A DNA stretch of 12,408 nucleotides from Acholeplasmataceae bacterium. Its GTDB lineage: Bacteria > Bacillota_I > Bacilli_A > ML615J-28 > CAG-698. The notes under the pieces were generated by a model. That model worked only from the letters and a program-made list of their open reading frames with translations, was not told where the DNA came from and ran no database searches. Positions 1,759-12,374 of the stretch are shown here, one piece after another; the stretch's first letter is position 1; each line of letters opens with the position of its first letter. The translations under genes were made by a program, and so were the position numbers. The stretch is from contig DUUA01000124.1 in NCBI GenBank assembly GCA_012841765.1, positions 1 to 12,408 on the forward strand, in the 5' to 3' direction.

Positions 1759-1784
1759 AAAAAAAGCCAAGTATTTACTTGGCT
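1759..1784 (-). terminator. Rho-independent terminator of the aromatic amino acid ABC transporter operon
   Basis: On the minus strand AGCCAAGT (1784-1777) pairs perfectly with ACTTGGCT (1772-1765) across a 4-nt loop, followed by seven T residues (1765-1759). The stop codon of the ATPase gene (1777-1775) lies inside the hairpin, so the terminator is embedded in the end of the coding region. Confidence 0.9.
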
Positions 1785-2572
1785 AAAACTAATTGATCTG
1801 AAATAGTTACATTTGTTGAACTAAATTTTTGTAATAGTTTTTCTATTGTTAAATTCTTTTTTTCTTCATCTCTAACATCTAAGATTACTTTTCCCTCATT
1901 AAACATTAGTAATCGATTTCCATATCTAATAGCATCTTTCATATTATGAGTAATCATAATAGTTGTTAATTTTTCATTTTGAATAATTTTTTCAGAAATA
2001 TCTAAAACGGTTTTTGCAGTTTTTGGATCAAGTGCAGCAGTGTGCTCATCTAATAAAAGTAATTTAGGACTATTTAGGGTTGCCATTAATAAAGTTATTG
2101 CTTGTCTTTGTCCTCCAGATAATAAACCAATTTTTTGATCCATCCTTTGTTCTAGTCCTAAATCAAGTCTTGCAAGCAAATTTTTAAATAAATCTTTATT
2201 TTTTGCTGAAAAACCCCATCTCAATGTTTTTCTTTTACCTCTTTTTAAAGCCATTTCCATGTTTTCAAGTATTGACATATTCGATGCAGTTCCTTGCATT
2301 GGATCTTGATAAACCATCCCCATATATTTTGCTCTTTTATATTGTTTCATTTTAGTAATATCTAAACCGTCTAAAACAACATGGCCAATATCAGCAAAAT
2401 GCATTCCCGTGACAACATTTAAAAAAGTTGATTTCCCACTTCCATTACTACCAATGACCGTAATAAAATCACCATCTTCTACGGTAATAGTTAAATCATC
2501 AAGAGCTACTTTACGATCAATTTCATTTTGATCTTTATTAAAAACTTTAGTTACATTTTTTAATTCTAACAT
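1775..2572 (-). CDS. ABC transporter ATP-binding protein, TrpZ-like (COG1101 type)
   Basis: A 265-residue cytoplasmic ATPase powering the importer formed with the permease just upstream. Visible motifs: Walker A GSNGSGKS at about 41-48, a Q-loop around 88-92 (VYQDP), signature LSGGQRQ at 151-157, Walker B LLLLDEH at 171-177 followed by TAALDP, and a switch histidine in MITHNM. The DEH instead of DEP after Walker B is typical of the subgroup that works with ABC_sub_bind lipoproteins. ATG at 2572 is preceded by AAGGAG. It overlaps the 3' end of the permease gene by 7 bp, which indicates translational coupling. Substrate assignment to tyrosine/aromatic amino acids rests on the upstream leader peptides, not on this protein. 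Confidence 0.93.
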   Translation of the reverse strand: MLELKNVTKVFNKDQNEIDRKVALDDLTITVEDGDFITVIGSNGSGKSTFLNVVTGMHFADIGHVVLDGLDITKMKQYKRAKYMGMVYQDPMQGTASNMSILENMEMALKRGKRKTLRWGFSAKNKDLFKNLLARLDLGLEQRMDQKIGLLSGGQRQAITLLMATLNSPKLLLLDEHTAALDPKTAKTVLDISEKIIQNEKLTTIMITHNMKDAIRYGNRLLMFNEGKVILDVRDEEKKNLTIEKLLQKFSSTNVTISDQLVLAK

Positions 2573-3474
2573 GATTTTAGCTCCTTATTGACTTTTCTAT
2601 TTTTTATTGCTTTTGTTATTAATGGCATTCCAAGTATGATTGCTACTAATATTGCTTGTAATAGTTTTAAATCATTAGGATTCATACCTAATAAATTAAT
2701 GGCAATTGCAATTAATAATTGATAAACAAAACTACCAACGATAATAGCAATCAACCAAACTTTAAATGATTTTTTGCCAATTATTGCTTCCCCAATTATA
2801 ATTGAGGCAAGTCCAATAACAATAGTCCCCTTACCAATATCCATATTACTACTAGCCATTTTTTGTGCTATCAAAGAACCGCTTAAAGCAACTAATCCAT
2901 TTGCAAGAGCAAGTCCCAAAATAATCATTAAATCCGTATTAATTCCTAATGATTTACTCATTTTTTGATTCATTCCTGTTGTTCTGACACTCATACCAAT
3001 TTCAGTGCCAAAAAACCAATATAGTACTAAAAATATTATTATAACTACTAGTAATGCTGTCAGAGTTTTAGATAAAGCTCTATTATCAAACAACATATTA
3101 ATATATGAAAAAACAGTTTTATTATCTCCAATATAAAGAGATGCTTTTCCCATTACTTTTAAGTTGACGGAATATAACCCTGTCATTGTAATAATACCTG
3201 CAAGAATTCCCGGTATTTTTAATTTTGTATGTAAAAGGCCAGTAATTGTTCCAGCTAACATTCCACCAAAAAATGCAATAATTGTAGCCAGAAGGGGATT
3301 TACTCCTTTAATAATTAATATTGCAGCTATTGCTGCTCCTAAAGTCAAAGTACCTTCACTAGTTAAATCAGCAAAATCTAGAACTCTAAAAGAAATGAAG
3401 ATACCAAGGGCCATTATCGCCCATACTAAACCTTCTTGAAAAGAATCTGTTAAAATATTTAATAATATATCCAA
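2566..3474 (-). CDS. ABC transporter permease, TrpY-like (BPD_transp_2 family)
   Basis: A 302-residue integral membrane protein with about eight hydrophobic segments, including the family-typical stretches FRVLDFADLTSEGTLTLGAA near the N-terminus and KIPGILAGIITMTGLYSVN around 85-105. This fold is shared with branched-chain amino acid and TrpXYZ-type permeases; it should form a homodimeric channel served by the adjacent ATPase and by the ABC_sub_bind lipoproteins. The start is a TTG at 3474, supported by AGGAG 9 nt upstream; this Shine-Dalgarno sequence overlaps the stop codon of the preceding lipoprotein gene, so the two are probably coupled. The 3' end overlaps the ATPase gene by 7 bp. It is the only permease in the window and presumably serves both lipoprotein paralogs. 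Confidence 0.92.
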   Translation of the reverse strand: MDILLNILTDSFQEGLVWAIMALGIFISFRVLDFADLTSEGTLTLGAAIAAILIIKGVNPLLATIIAFFGGMLAGTITGLLHTKLKIPGILAGIITMTGLYSVNLKVMGKASLYIGDNKTVFSYINMLFDNRALSKTLTALLVVIIIFLVLYWFFGTEIGMSVRTTGMNQKMSKSLGINTDLMIILGLALANGLVALSGSLIAQKMASSNMDIGKGTIVIGLASIIIGEAIIGKKSFKVWLIAIIVGSFVYQLLIAIAINLLGMNPNDLKLLQAILVAIILGMPLITKAIKNRKVNKELKSC

Positions 3475-3486
3475 TTTCTTTTACTC

Positions 3487-4485
3487 CTATTCCTTTATTA
3501 AATCAGCTACTAATATAGCATTTTGCAATAAATCAGTTGGTATTTCGACACCAATTAAATCTAATTGCTTCTTATTGATAACAAGTTTAAATTCTTCTAG
3601 TCCTATAGACGGTATTTCACTAGGTTTTAATTTATCCCTTAAAATTGAAATAGCCATTTGTGCTGTTTGAAATCCCAAATTATAATAATCAATACCATAA
3701 GTAATTGATCCACCATCAATAACAGAATTGATTTCTCCAGCAATAGCTGGAATTTTTTCTTGTAAAACAACTTCATTAATAACACCCATAGCGCCAGCTA
3801 TAGCATTATCTGTTGGGATGTAAATAGCATCTACTTTTTTAGCAAGAGCTGAAGCAACTAATTGTAAATCATTAATTGTGTCAATAGTACTAATATGAAC
3901 TGTTAAACCTAGCTTTTCTGCTTCAACTTTAGCAATATTAGCTTGAATTTCTGAATTAGTTTCACTAGAAGTATAAAGAATTCCTATGCTTTTAGCATTT
4001 GGTACTAGCTTTTTAACTAACCCAATTTGTTCTTTAATAGGATTCATATCGTTTGTTCCTGTAACATTTCCTCCAGGAAATTCATTACTCTCAATTAACA
4101 TTGCTGAAACAGGATCAGTTACTGCCGTAAATAAAATTGGCGTGTCTTTTTCTTGATCTTTTGCTTCATTTAATATTGCGTTAGCTGCTGGTGTAGCAAT
4201 AGCTAATATTAAATCACTATTTCTTACAAGTTTCTTTGCTTGTAGAGACATTGTTGGATAATCTTTTTCTGGATTTAGTAGTTCAATATCAATATTATCA
4301 CCATTTATATAACCCACTGCTGCAAGTCCATCAATAAAACCCCTTCGAGCATTACTCAAAGCTTCTATTTCTAAATACTGTAAAATACCAATTTTAATTC
4401 TTTTTTCAGAATTATCACAACCACTAGATAGTAATAAAACACAAATAGATAATAACACTATTAATAATCCTTTTAAATTTTTCAT
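3487..4485 (-). CDS. ABC_sub_bind (TrpX-like) substrate-binding lipoprotein, copy A
   Basis: A 332-residue extracytoplasmic substrate-binding protein. The N-terminus is a lipoprotein signal with the cysteine at about 23 (LLLSSGC, a slightly loose lipobox), then the two-lobed ABC_sub_bind domain (KIGILQYLEIEALS..., ILFTAVTDPVSAML, GGNVTGTNDMNPIKEQIGLVKKLVPN, DAIYIPTDNAIAGAMG, GGSITYGIDYYNLG). Members of this family include TrpX; the ligand is usually an aromatic amino acid or is unknown. It is the first gene of the transcript that continues into the permease and ATPase, 12 bp upstream of the permease start. ATG at 4485 has a strong GAGGAGGA site. The upstream leader encodes a Phe/Tyr-rich peptide and an attenuator terminator. 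It is a close tandem paralog of the lipoprotein at 4847-5836 (by eye about three quarters identical), with differences at the hinge/ligand region (IAGEINSVIDGG here). Confidence 0.93.
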   Translation of the reverse strand: MKNLKGLLIVLLSICVLLLSSGCDNSEKRIKIGILQYLEIEALSNARRGFIDGLAAVGYINGDNIDIELLNPEKDYPTMSLQAKKLVRNSDLILAIATPAANAILNEAKDQEKDTPILFTAVTDPVSAMLIESNEFPGGNVTGTNDMNPIKEQIGLVKKLVPNAKSIGILYTSSETNSEIQANIAKVEAEKLGLTVHISTIDTINDLQLVASALAKKVDAIYIPTDNAIAGAMGVINEVVLQEKIPAIAGEINSVIDGGSITYGIDYYNLGFQTAQMAISILRDKLKPSEIPSIGLEEFKLVINKKQLDLIGVEIPTDLLQNAILVADLIKE

Positions 4486-4504: not shown

Positions 4505-4535
4505 AAAAAAAATGTGTTATAAGCAATAACACATT
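4505..4535 (-). terminator. Attenuator terminator in leader A
   Basis: A perfect 10-bp stem on the minus strand (AATGTGTTAT / ATAACACATT, inverted) with loop TGCTT and a run of eight T residues (4512-4505), lying 20 nt before the start codon of copy A and upstream of its ribosome binding site. The stem and loop are base-for-base identical to the one in leader B. A terminator between promoter and gene implies conditional read-through. Confidence 0.9.
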
Positions 4536-4638
4536 AAAGATTAAAATTAATTTCTTTATCGTTATTACTTAATCAAGATTTGCTGATATCAAGTAATAAC
4601 ATTTATACCTTCCAAGCTAAAAAGCCAAGAACATATTG

Positions 4639-4707
4639 CTAATTTACAAGATATCTCCTTGGAAAGTAAAAATAATAAAAAAATTGATTAATTATGACTG
4701 AATTCAT
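4639..4707 (-). CDS. Aromatic leader peptide A (22 aa, FFYYFYF-PRRY)
   Basis: A 22-residue reading frame, ATG at 4707, TAG at 4641-4639, with a strong GGAGGAAAG Shine-Dalgarno sequence (4720-4712) at normal spacing. It reads MNSVIINQ, then FFYYFYF, then PRRYLVN. Eight of 22 codons are Phe or Tyr, seven of them consecutive. It sits about 30 nt after a good promoter and about 100 nt before an intrinsic terminator, the position of a classical attenuation leader peptide such as PheL. It aligns without gaps over residues 1-19 with the leader peptide at 5994-6059 (M.S.I.NQF.YY.Y.PRRY). Its likely role is to make a translating ribosome stall when charged tRNA-Tyr or tRNA-Phe is scarce, not to act as a stable protein. 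Confidence 0.85.
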   Translation of the reverse strand: MNSVIINQFFYYFYFPRRYLVN

Positions 4708-4735
4708 AATTCTTTCCTCCAACTTTAATGAAATC

Positions 4736-4764
4736 ATTATAATATAAAAAAGCCATTAAGTAAA
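4736..4764 (-). promoter_or_regulatory. Promoter for leader A / copy A transporter operon
   Basis: TTTACT (4764-4759), a 17-nt spacer and TATAAT (4741-4736) on the minus strand, giving a start site about 7 nt downstream and shortly before the leader peptide ribosome binding site. The -35 and spacer lie inside the terminator hairpin of the preceding lipoprotein gene. Confidence 0.8.
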
Positions 4765-4801
4765 TGAAAAGATTGAATGAAAACACTTACATGGCTTTTT
4801 T
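4746..4801 (-). terminator. Terminator after lipoprotein copy B, likely bidirectional
   Basis: AAAAAAGCCAT (4746-4756) is the exact inverse complement of ATGGCTTTTTT (4791-4801), with further imperfect pairing inside (4760-4766 with 4784-4790) and a long A-rich loop. Either strand ends in six T residues. It begins 46 bp after the stop codon of copy B and should separate its transcript from the downstream transporter operon. Confidence 0.75.
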
Positions 4802-4846
4802 AATTAAATATCAAGTTTAAATGACTAAATACTATTAATTTTAGCC

Positions 4847-5836
4847 TTATACAAAATCATCAGCTGCTTCTAATAATTCAGTTGGTATAGTAATTCCAAT
4901 CTGATCTAATTGTTTTTTATTGATAACTAAACTAAATTTTTCAATTGCTAATCCAATTGAAGGTATTTCACTAGGTAATTTATTATCTCTTAGAATAGCT
5001 ACTGCCATTTTAGCAGTTTCAATTCCTAATTTATAATAATCAATTCCATAACTAATTGATCCCCCATCATAAACTGGGTTTGCCTCTCCATTAATTACTG
5101 GTATTTTTTCTTGCAAAACAACTTCATTCATAATTCCCATAGCCCCAGCAATTGCATTATCAGTTGGAATGTATATAGCATCGACTTTTTTAGCAAGGGC
5201 AGAAGCAACTAATTGCAAATCATTTATTGTATCAATAGTGCTAATTTGCACAACCAATCCAAGAGCTTCAGCCTCAGTTTTTGCTATTTCAGCTTGTATT
5301 TCTGAATTAGGTTCACTAGCAGTATATAAAATCCCTAGTTTTTTTGCATTAGGAACTAATTGTTTTACTAAACCGATTTGTTCTTTAATTGGATTCATAT
5401 CGTTTGTCCCTGTAACATTTCCTCCTGGAAATTCATTACTAGCAATTAACATTGATACTACAGGATCAGTTACTGCAGTAAAAAGAATAGGTGTGTCTTT
5501 TTGTTGATCTTTTGCTTCATTTAAAACTGCGCTTGCTGCTGGTGTAGCAATAGCTAATATTAAATCGCTATTTCTGACAAGTTTTTTTGCTTGCAGTGAC
5601 ATTGTTGCAGCATCAGTTTCTGGATTAAGAAGTTCAATAACAATATTATCTCCATCATTATAACCTTCTGCTTTTAATCCATCAATAAACCCACGTCTTG
5701 CATCACTCAAAGCTTCAATTTCTAAATATTGTAAAATACCTATTTTTACTTTTCCATTAGAATTATCACAACCCGTTGCAATAAAACCCATAAATACCAA
5801 TAATAACACTATAAATAAACTTTTAAAATTTTTCAT
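4847..5836 (-). CDS. ABC_sub_bind (TrpX-like) substrate-binding lipoprotein, copy B
   Basis: A 329-residue lipoprotein paralogous to the one at 3487-4485. The correct start is the ATG at 5836, which has AGAGGAG about 6 nt upstream and begins a lipoprotein signal (MKNFKSLF..., IATGC with the cysteine at about 23). A longer in-frame ATG at 5896 would run through the attenuator terminator and is rejected. The two-lobed ABC_sub_bind domain is complete (KIGILQYLEIEALSDARRGF, ILFTAVTDPVVSMLI, DAIYIPTDNAIAGAMG, GGSISYGIDYYKLG). It differs from copy A near the hinge (VINGEANPVYDGG) and in the C-terminal strand (IGLAIEKFSLVINKKQLD). It is followed by its own terminator, so it is a one-gene transcription unit without permease or ATPase and presumably feeds the shared transporter at 1775-3474. 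Its leader peptide carries five consecutive Tyr codons. Confidence 0.93.
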   Translation of the reverse strand: MKNFKSLFIVLLLVFMGFIATGCDNSNGKVKIGILQYLEIEALSDARRGFIDGLKAEGYNDGDNIVIELLNPETDAATMSLQAKKLVRNSDLILAIATPAASAVLNEAKDQQKDTPILFTAVTDPVVSMLIASNEFPGGNVTGTNDMNPIKEQIGLVKQLVPNAKKLGILYTASEPNSEIQAEIAKTEAEALGLVVQISTIDTINDLQLVASALAKKVDAIYIPTDNAIAGAMGIMNEVVLQEKIPVINGEANPVYDGGSISYGIDYYKLGIETAKMAVAILRDNKLPSEIPSIGLAIEKFSLVINKKQLDQIGITIPTELLEAADDFV

Positions 5837-5857
5837 TTTTCTCCTCTTTCTTAAATT

Positions 5858-5887
5858 AAAAAAATGTGTTATAAGCAATAACACATT
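5858..5887 (-). terminator. Attenuator terminator in leader B
   Basis: Same 10-bp stem and TGCTT loop as leader A (5887-5878 with 5872-5863), followed by seven T residues (5864-5858), located 22 nt upstream of the copy B start codon. Confidence 0.9.
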
Positions 5888-5993
5888 AAAAATCAAATTG
5901 ATTCTATTATTGTTATTACTTAATCAAATTCAAATGATATCAAGTAATAACAATTTTATTTTCCCAGCTAAAAAGCCAAGAATATATAGTAAG

Positions 5994-6059
5994 TTAACTT
6001 TGATATCTTCTTGGTAAGTAATAATAATAATAAAATTGATTACAAATGATAGACTTCAT
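5994..6059 (-). CDS. Tyrosine leader peptide B (21 aa, FYYYYYL-PRRY)
   Basis: A 21-residue reading frame, ATG at 6059, TAA at 5996-5994, with GGAGGAAA (6072-6065) as ribosome binding site. It reads MKSIICNQ, then FYYYYYL, then PRRYQS. Six of 21 codons are Tyr, five of them in a row (four TAT, one TAC). The N-terminus (M.S.I.NQF) and the PRRY are shared with leader peptide A, while the aromatic block differs only in which aromatic residue is used. This is the pattern expected when the codon identity of the block is what matters. Inferred role: a sensor of tRNA-Tyr charging that controls transcription of lipoprotein copy B. Confidence 0.87.
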   Translation of the reverse strand: MKSIICNQFYYYYYLPRRYQS

Positions 6060-6087
6060 AACTGTTTCCTCCAACTTTATTGAAACC

Positions 6088-6116
6088 ATTATATTATAAA
6101 ACAAACAATATGTAAA
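6088..6116 (-). promoter_or_regulatory. Promoter for leader B / lipoprotein copy B
   Basis: TTTACA (6116-6111), 17-nt spacer, TATAAT (6093-6088) on the minus strand; a second overlapping TATAAT lies at 6098-6093. It is located about 15 nt upstream of the leader peptide ribosome binding site. The -35 is 40 bp after the queT stop codon. Confidence 0.82.
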
Positions 6117-12174: not shown

Positions 12175-12199
12175 TTCCCCTCCGGAATGATCTACTTTA

Positions 12200-12350
12200 G
12201 TTAATGGCAGGTCTCCTGACTTAAGAATCATCATAAATCTTAATCTTCCCGATTTCTCAGTGATATATAAAGATTTACTCCTCAATTACAGTAGCGGGGG
12301 CTATTCTAGATTTTCACTAGATTCCCTATTAATGCATCAAATGCAACCAA
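12200..12350 (-). promoter_or_regulatory. Cobalamin (B12) riboswitch aptamer
   Basis: The minus strand contains, in the right order, GGTTGCATTTGATGC, then ATAGGGAATCTAGTGAAAATC, then CCCCCGCTACTGTAA, then CACTGAGAAATCGGGAAG, and the B12 box AAGTCAGGAGACCTGCC (12222-12206). These are the conserved core segments of cobalamin riboswitches. The terminator that follows makes it a transcriptional off-switch for the five-gene uptake operon. Confidence 0.96.
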
Positions 12351-12374
12351 AAACTATTCTATTTAATTAAACAT

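Follow-up and report, generated by a model that had tools for sequence, protein, structure and literature searches.

Tyrosine-codon leader peptides with a predicted five-arm attenuator precede the ABC_sub_bind importer genes of an Acholeplasmataceae bacterium

The stretch of DNA analysed here, referred to as the window, is 12,408 bases long with 26.6% GC (contig DUUA01000124.1 of assembly GCA_012841765.1, Acholeplasmataceae bacterium), and its minus strand carries an importer operon of the ATP-binding cassette (ABC) type with two lipoprotein genes of the ABC_sub_bind family. Each of the two is preceded by a short leader open reading frame (ORF) with a run of aromatic codons. We propose that each lipoprotein gene is very probably under a ribosome-mediated transcription attenuator that reads the supply of tyrosyl-tRNA and takes the form of a five-arm relay. 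The ORF, the codon run, the arms and their covariation, the pocket residues of the importer proteins and the gene context are read directly from the sequence and from comparison with relatives.

An initial annotation had described a promoter, a ribosome binding site, an ORF of 21-22 codons with a Tyr/Phe run and an intrinsic terminator before both lipoprotein genes, and these parts are present at mapped coordinates, all on the minus strand. In leader 1 a promoter-like site (TTTACA-17-TATAAT, 6088..6116, consensus 11/12) is followed by the ribosome binding site GGAGG (6068..6072) and by the 21-codon leader peptide MKSIICNQFYYYYYLPRRYQS (5994..6059), an ORF that is conserved in relatives and whose aromatic run is TTT TAT TAT TAT TAT TAC (6018..6035). 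Beyond the run lie CCAAG (6010..6014), the 5' arm of a candidate pause helix with its partner TCTTGG at 5981-5976; arm 1b (GATATC..., 5999..6007); arm 3 (GTTATTAC, 5944..5951) with arm 3b next to it (5944-5936); arm 4 (GTAATAAC, 5912..5919), whose partner is arm 3 or arm 5; and arms 5 and 6, the intrinsic terminator AATGTGTTAT-TGCTT-ATAACACATT with a U-run (5858..5887). Leader 2 has the same layout, with a promoter-like site (TTTACT-17-TATAAT, 4736..4764, consensus 10/12), GGAGG (4716..4720), the 22-codon peptide MNSVIINQFFYYFYFPRRYLVN (4639..4707), which has a near-identical counterpart at locus L001, the run TTT TTT TAT TAT TTT TAC (4666..4683), arm 1b (4647..4655), arm 3 (4593..4600) with arm 3b (4593-4585), arm 4 (4561..4568) and the same terminator hairpin of arms 5 and 6 (4505..4535). 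A terminator scan of the window listed neither leader hairpin because each has two G-C pairs and the threshold of the scan is three. The upstream regions of the two genes are 89% identical when aligned (mean column identity) and the lipoproteins are 79% identical, which suggests, in line with the duplication seen at the outset, a joint duplication of leader and gene.

It is conservation, as judged from genome comparison, that raises the observation of two leaders above chance. Tyr-run leaders of the same design were found before an ABC_sub_bind gene at L001 to L012, L034, L035, L053 and L069 among 79 loci examined; the leader at L007 was recognised by eye, and that at L025, which is more divergent, was omitted from the covariance model and from alignment A4. 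The closest named locus to the window, L001, is from a Bacilli metagenome-assembled genome, with 80% identity to lipoprotein 1. The covariance model, R1, was built from 19 leaders, two of them from the window. It matched 15 of the 16 genomes of the Tyr-leader loci, with a single match in each except for two in G001, the closest relative of the window, in which the leaders are likewise in tandem. Of 43 genomes in the order of G001, R1 matched 22 (E up to 1e-3), and of 395 in a sample of the class it matched 21 (E up to 1e-4). Outside the training loci R1 found 11 new matches (L097 to L107; L096 is training locus L053 and hence is not counted). Nine of them are located before an ABC_sub_bind gene, another (L107) before a permease-ATPase pair and the last (L104, in G031) before aroB-aroC, so that all 11/11 sit before aromatic import or shikimate genes; the gene labels of L104 and L107 were confirmed with Pfam. 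At L104 the leader precedes the genes for 3-dehydroquinate synthase and chorismate synthase, with matches to DAHP synthase and prephenate dehydrogenase downstream on the same strand, and judging by this context the attenuator may also serve biosynthesis.

The ABC_sub_bind family (PF04392) is present in 24/43 genomes of the order of G001, and the leader is found at the importer in 21/24 of these versus 0/19 of the genomes without PF04392. When the 12 genomes that gave training sequences are left out, the figures are 9/12 versus 0/19. A GGAG-like site and a start codon precede the run in nearly all leaders (L007 and L104 are without one by the filter used), and a hairpin with a U-run, taken as the best candidate, was identified in all 30 leaders of the alignment. 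Used by itself, a loose ORF filter is unspecific, since at least 7 of its 62 rows were at sites unrelated to an ABC_sub_bind gene.

The absence of a T-box at the leaders, which had been stated from inspection, was borne out by an Rfam scan of the whole window at a permissive threshold (E up to 1), which returned only a cobalamin riboswitch and no T-box (RF00230). T-boxes are present in 43/43 genomes searched in the order of G001, and they precede ABC_sub_bind paralogues of the V/Y type at L128 and L133 (over the Rfam cut-off). Thus, the group owns T-boxes and does not use them at the Tyr-leader importers. A third paralogue, at L134, has a T-box by eye; at L128, L133 and L134 another short ORF lies between T-box and gene, and in two of these, L128 and L133, CATGAAC is where a pair of tiny ORFs overlap. 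L119 and L121 (G031 and G032) have, some 140 bases before an ABC_sub_bind gene, a similar but compact element that includes a GTTATTGC/GTAATAAC terminator of its own and has neither a Tyr leader nor a T-box. For aroF-type genes of the same order, the stretch of about 1.5 kb upstream contained no aromatic leader at any of the 30 loci examined of 44 listed matches; a few of these loci are cut by contig ends, and this distance would miss a leader that heads a longer operon such as that of L104. Genomes in which the leader adjoins the importer less often have a prephenate dehydrogenase domain (5/21 versus 13/22, Fisher p 0.03), a contrast that carries no argument because the genomes are of uncertain completeness and not independent.

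The six-codon run was compared in 29 distinct leaders (174 codons), one of the two identical leaders L101 and L102 having been dropped from this and from the 4:5 and folding analyses. TAT accounts for 91 codons, TAC for 43 and TTT for 27; third positions vary silently, also between TAT and TAC, and the run is kept as Tyr codons (134/174) in one frame. The claim that tyrosine is the signal is thus supported for the family as a whole; it is less clear for leader 2, in which the run is mixed, so that Phe may count there too. Pairing of the arms was examined in the alignment and by a swap test, in which the duplex energy of each arm with its own partner was compared with that of partners from other leaders in 5000 permutations. 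Arm 1b was not aligned in this test, which was chosen because A4 misplaces arm 1b in rows in which it is short (such as L097, L099, L100, L035 and L053). For 1b:3b, five rows with a repeated 1b sequence were dropped, leaving 25 leaders; the mean duplex energy was -10.67 kcal/mol with the own partner versus -5.77 with swapped partners, none of 5000 permutations reached this, and 25/25 leaders beat their own median swap. In the alignment 82.7% of 1b:3b cells pair and 8/9 pairs have changes on both sides. As a control on the whole structure, 1b:3b taken together with a helix of the run and arm 4 pairs in 86.9% of cells, 0/500 shuffles being as high and slid versions remaining below 58%. Helices 3:4 and 5:6 each gave 0/5000 in the swap test. 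The result for 4:5 was weaker (4/5000); 95.2% of its cells pair and only two of its pairs changed on both sides. The CCAAG:CTTGG helix pairs in 92.8% of cells (19 leaders) with both-side changes in three cells. Since the permutations ignore kinship, the significance in the swap test is exaggerated where sequences are related, and we consider the concerted arm changes in the distant members L005, L010, L034 and L035 to be the stronger point. These comparisons support a mutually exclusive antiterminator with covariation, in which 4:5 is opposed to 3:4 and 5:6, together with 1b:3b.

In ribosome-free minimum-energy folds the Tyr run itself appeared as an RNA arm paired with arm 4. Own partners were no better than swapped ones (811/5000), and this pairing was therefore rejected as a conserved helix; the run is apparently not kept for pairing.

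These parts suggest how the leader would work. When tyrosine is scarce, the ribosome would wait on the Tyr codons with its front edge short of most of arm 1b; the exposed 1b would pair with 3b and free arm 4, and arm 4 would then pair with arm 5, so that the terminator 5:6 is blocked and transcription continues into the importer gene. With ample tyrosine, the ribosome would reach the stop codon and cover arm 1b, 3:4 would form, arm 5 would be left free, and the terminator 5:6 would end transcription. The CCAAG:CTTGG helix is probably a pause helix, which would keep the polymerase synchronised with the ribosome. Coupling, stalling, pausing and the response to tyrosine are what we infer from the arrangement of ORF, run and arms.

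The predicted effect of ribosome position was examined by folding each leader from the front edge of the ribosome to the end of arm 5, the measure being the mean paired fraction of eight arm positions; such folding is at equilibrium and is a proxy for the co-transcriptional race, not kinetics. With the ribosome on the last Tyr codon the mean over 29 leaders was 0.66 for 4:5 and 0.07 for 3:4, and with the ribosome at the stop codon it was 0.21 and 0.53, respectively. By rounded values, 4:5 was higher on stalling in 27/29 leaders and equal in two, with a tiny difference in three (L007, L012 and L107); by a margin of 0.1 it was higher in 24/29 and lower in none. With footprints from 10 to 16 nucleotides the direction was unchanged, 19 to 25 of the 29 leaders passing the same margin. 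When the 1b zone was shuffled, stalled 4:5 dropped to 0.27, and the native value was above the shuffled one in 29/29. In leader 1 of the window 4:5 was 0.75 stalled versus 0.12 at the stop codon, and by prediction arm 1b is accessible only as long as the ribosome waits on the Tyr codons. Ribosome-mediated attenuation, which had been inferred from the two leaders of the window, is thus supported by the covariation of the arms and, in silico only, by the folding with ribosome position.

The amino acid carried by the importer can be approached from the residues of its binding pocket. In CD0873 of C. difficile, Glu263 binds tyrosine and Tyr279 blocks tryptophan, while the phenylalanine binder VC_1101 has Ala and Tyr and the tryptophan binder SP1069 has Ala and Gln at these places (PMC6816091). 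Lipoprotein 1 matches three solved sequences (6hni, 3lft and 3lkv), and in alignments to 6hni both window lipoproteins have Glu and Tyr at the CD0873 263 and 279 places (Glu251 and Tyr267 in lipoprotein 1). This CD0873-type pocket supports the earlier suggestion that tyrosine is the substrate, and the importer would accordingly be a tyrosine transporter. The description of the importer as TrpXYZ-type did not hold, because the lipoproteins score 285.7 and 285.6 bits with the TrpX model NF041285, below its curated cut-off of 390, and have the residues of a tyrosine binder instead. In a table of 128 distinct ABC_sub_bind ORFs, Glu/Tyr is found in 27/28 of the proteins behind the Tyr-leader family (the leader of L007 being assigned by eye) and in 48/128 overall.

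Leaders of other designs were found on the same importer family in other lineages. The Leptolinea family of Chloroflexota, which we take to be Anaerolineaceae, has tandem modules in which a Phe-only leader precedes an Ala/Tyr protein and a Tyr-containing leader precedes a Glu/Tyr protein. Among its distinct leaders, 6/6 of the Ala type are without Tyr in the run (one, at L155, has Tyr outside the run) and 6/6 of the Glu type have three or more Tyr, although in two of the latter (L159 and L160) Phe is as frequent as Tyr or more so. The count covers only those proteins of the family with a detected leader. The sixth Tyr leader (L164), with four aromatic residues in its run, is below the filter and was recognised by eye, and the association of leader codon with pocket residue (Fisher p 0.002) was computed on 6 and 5 leaders. 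By the filter there is no leader before Glu-type proteins in L155, L156, L165, L167 and L168 or before two Ala-type proteins in L166; at L168 a T-box-like sequence was seen by eye. The leaders of this family (L016, L020, L030, L155-L160, L162 and L164), with Phe-only or Tyr-rich runs, have by eye an RNA design different from the Tyr relay; those inspected have a stretch near the end of the ORF that is complementary to the terminator. In several, the start codon follows a TATAA-like box after only a few bases, so that these ORFs are perhaps leaderless.

A third design, with mixed Tyr/Phe codons, was found in Lactobacillales, where 33 leaders were aligned, 30/33 of them with the next ABC_sub_bind ORF less than 600 bases away (L014, L021-L023, L026-L029, L033, L036, L041, L042, L045, L047, L051, L054, L056, L057, L059-L064, L068, L070, L072-L074 and L076). 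These peptides end as YFYSYFR, YYYFSFFR or similar; downstream of them lies a long conserved series of alternative arms, together with a terminator. The four loci scanned (L014, L022, L028 and L054) gave no Rfam match at their leaders at gathering score. The Glu place is Ser or Asp in the Lactobacillales proteins, less often Asn or Ala. A further Bacillota leader, MNFGYYYCLSQVDRCTTLG (L017:28-87), stands before a Glu/Tyr protein, and its ORF segment CAGGTGGAT is complementary to the terminator arm ATCCACCTG. We lean towards the view that the tyrosine-sensing five-arm relay is one of several separately built leader-peptide attenuators on this importer family, in Acholeplasmatales-like Bacilli, Lactobacillales and the Leptolinea family, with codons that track the selectivity residue, and that the leader would thereby label the substrate.

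Several results weigh against a tyrosine attenuator of the relay form. Leader 2 of the window holds 4 Phe versus 3 Tyr codons, and its predicted 4:5 is only 0.75 stalled versus 0.47 at the stop codon. A clear switch is lacking in 5/29 leaders: the second copy of L001 and L006 are equal and L007 is almost equal between the two ribosome positions, and L012 and L107 keep 4:5 low even with the ribosome on the last Tyr codon. The ribosome-free fold already favours 4:5 (mean 0.48 versus 0.15 for 3:4), so that the untranslated state is not clearly off and behaviour without translation is not clearly predicted. The terminators are G-C-poor, with two G-C pairs per hairpin in the window. One importer gene in G031 and one in G032 are without a Tyr leader, L012 has a Tyr leader yet Thr at the Glu place (Thr/Tyr), and many Glu/Tyr proteins of other lineages are without an aromatic leader by the filter used.

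These points bear on what else the leaders could be. A sensor of phenylalanine, or of the aromatic amino acids as a group, with an importer that takes several of them, would agree with the Phe codons of leader 2, with the mixed Tyr/Phe leaders of Lactobacillales and with L159 and L160, where Phe equals or exceeds Tyr before Glu-type proteins. We nevertheless regard it as unlikely because Tyr takes 134/174 run codons versus 27 for Phe in the Tyr-leader family and because Phe-only runs accompany a different pocket residue in the Leptolinea family. A nascent arrest peptide of the TnaC kind, which inside the ribosome tunnel would sense free tyrosine or some other small molecule, with the run as a recognition motif and not a counter of charged tRNA, could draw on the PRR-like segment that follows the run in many leaders. 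As a peptide, however, this segment varies (PRG, PSV, PRK, PGR, REN, QEL), and CCAAG, which codes for PR, is conserved as a helix arm with CTTGG, by the pairing and the three both-side cells given above; moreover, an importer is expected to be repressed by tyrosine and not induced. We therefore give this explanation little credence. The extensive conserved pairing could also belong to a riboswitch or a protein-binding element with an incidental ORF, which is very improbable since silent changes in one frame leave the Tyr run intact, nearly all leaders have a start codon and a GGAG-like site before it, and the position of the run relative to arm 1b switches the predicted fold. Finally, the hairpins might merely end the upstream gene and the Tyr-rich ORFs might have arisen by chance, for at 26.6% GC the codons TAT and TTT are common, and a promoter scan was at chance level (84 found versus 88.3 expected), so that the promoter-like sites are not significant by count alone. 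This is contradicted by the conservation of the leader in 9/12 importer genomes outside the training set versus 0/19 genomes without the importer, and by the apparent duplication of leader and gene as a unit, and we give it next to no weight. The tyrosine-reading attenuator remains the explanation that we prefer.

The order of genes on the minus strand of the window is an ECF-type (energy-coupling factor) operon, a QueT-like gene, leader 1, lipoprotein 1 (4847..5836, ATG 5836; PF04392, E 1.6e-70), leader 2, lipoprotein 2 (3487..4485, ATG 4485; PF04392, E 2.6e-72), the importer permease (BPD_transp_2, 2566..3474; PF02653, E 9.2e-23) and the importer ATPase (1775..2572; PF00005, E 2.2e-25). The cobalamin riboswitch (RF00174, 116 bits, 12189-12366) heads the upstream ECF-type operon, which includes a DUF4430 protein. 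Downstream of the importer operon, 84-1685 encodes a secreted-looking protein with HYR and bacterial Ig-like domains. A search of viral contigs gave no relative, and a search of plasmids gave 124 records, every one below 60% identity.

The substrate of a transporter is difficult to predict, and in unannotated ABC_sub_bind importers the leader codons and the pocket residues could each serve as a check on the other, provided that the two agree as they do here for Tyr and Phe. If the proposal is true, tyrosine would join the amino acids that leader peptides read, within a Bacilli order in which all genomes searched have T-boxes, and an attenuator that passes the ribosome position through an additional helix exchange would be a variation on the trp paradigm.

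Earlier reports describe several related cases. The lipoprotein CD0873 has its protein family and the selectivity residues Glu and Tyr in common with the window proteins, and the accessible text on it differs in mentioning no leader peptide (PMC6816091). In Streptococcus suis, trpXYZ is under tryptophan T-box control (PMC9382623); the importer family is related and premature termination is likewise controlled by tRNA charging, but there the tRNA is bound directly, the amino acid is tryptophan and no leader peptide is described in the accessible text. It had been suggested that no system of this kind was described in this group, and this must be narrowed, as there are leader-peptide precedents in this part of Bacillota. 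His leader-peptide attenuators occur in Firmicutes, including Erysipelotrichales, on the his operon and/or the hisZ*YX transporter (PMC9413887); these too are leader-peptide attenuation of amino acid genes in Bacillota, and they differ in reading histidine, the accessible text containing no tyrosine case. The uORFC-13-1 leader of aroF in Acholeplasma, a probably nearby lineage, has a promoter, an ORF with at least one Phe codon and a terminator stem before an aromatic amino acid gene (PMC8632094); it differs in being described before aroF only, and it is set beside the Tyr leaders by description alone. In the open-access literature (subscription papers were not covered) we found neither a tyrosine leader peptide nor a leader on an ABC_sub_bind importer. 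To our knowledge, tyrosine has not previously been described among the amino acids read by leader peptides.

The trp, his and phe attenuators of Proteobacteria have a leader ORF with regulatory codons, mutually exclusive helices and an intrinsic terminator before the structural gene. The Tyr leaders share with them the short ORF, the exclusive helices, the terminator and the expected sign of the response, and to this extent the proposal that they work in the manner of trp is upheld. They are not of the simple trp type, however: the run is mainly of tyrosine codons, an importer is served and the host is a member of Bacillota, and between ribosome and terminator there would be a relay with one more helix exchange, 1b:3b then 4:5 as opposed to 3:4 then 5:6. 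Thus, leader-peptide attenuation in this part of Bacillota was already known, and what appears to be new here is its tyrosine-reading relay form.

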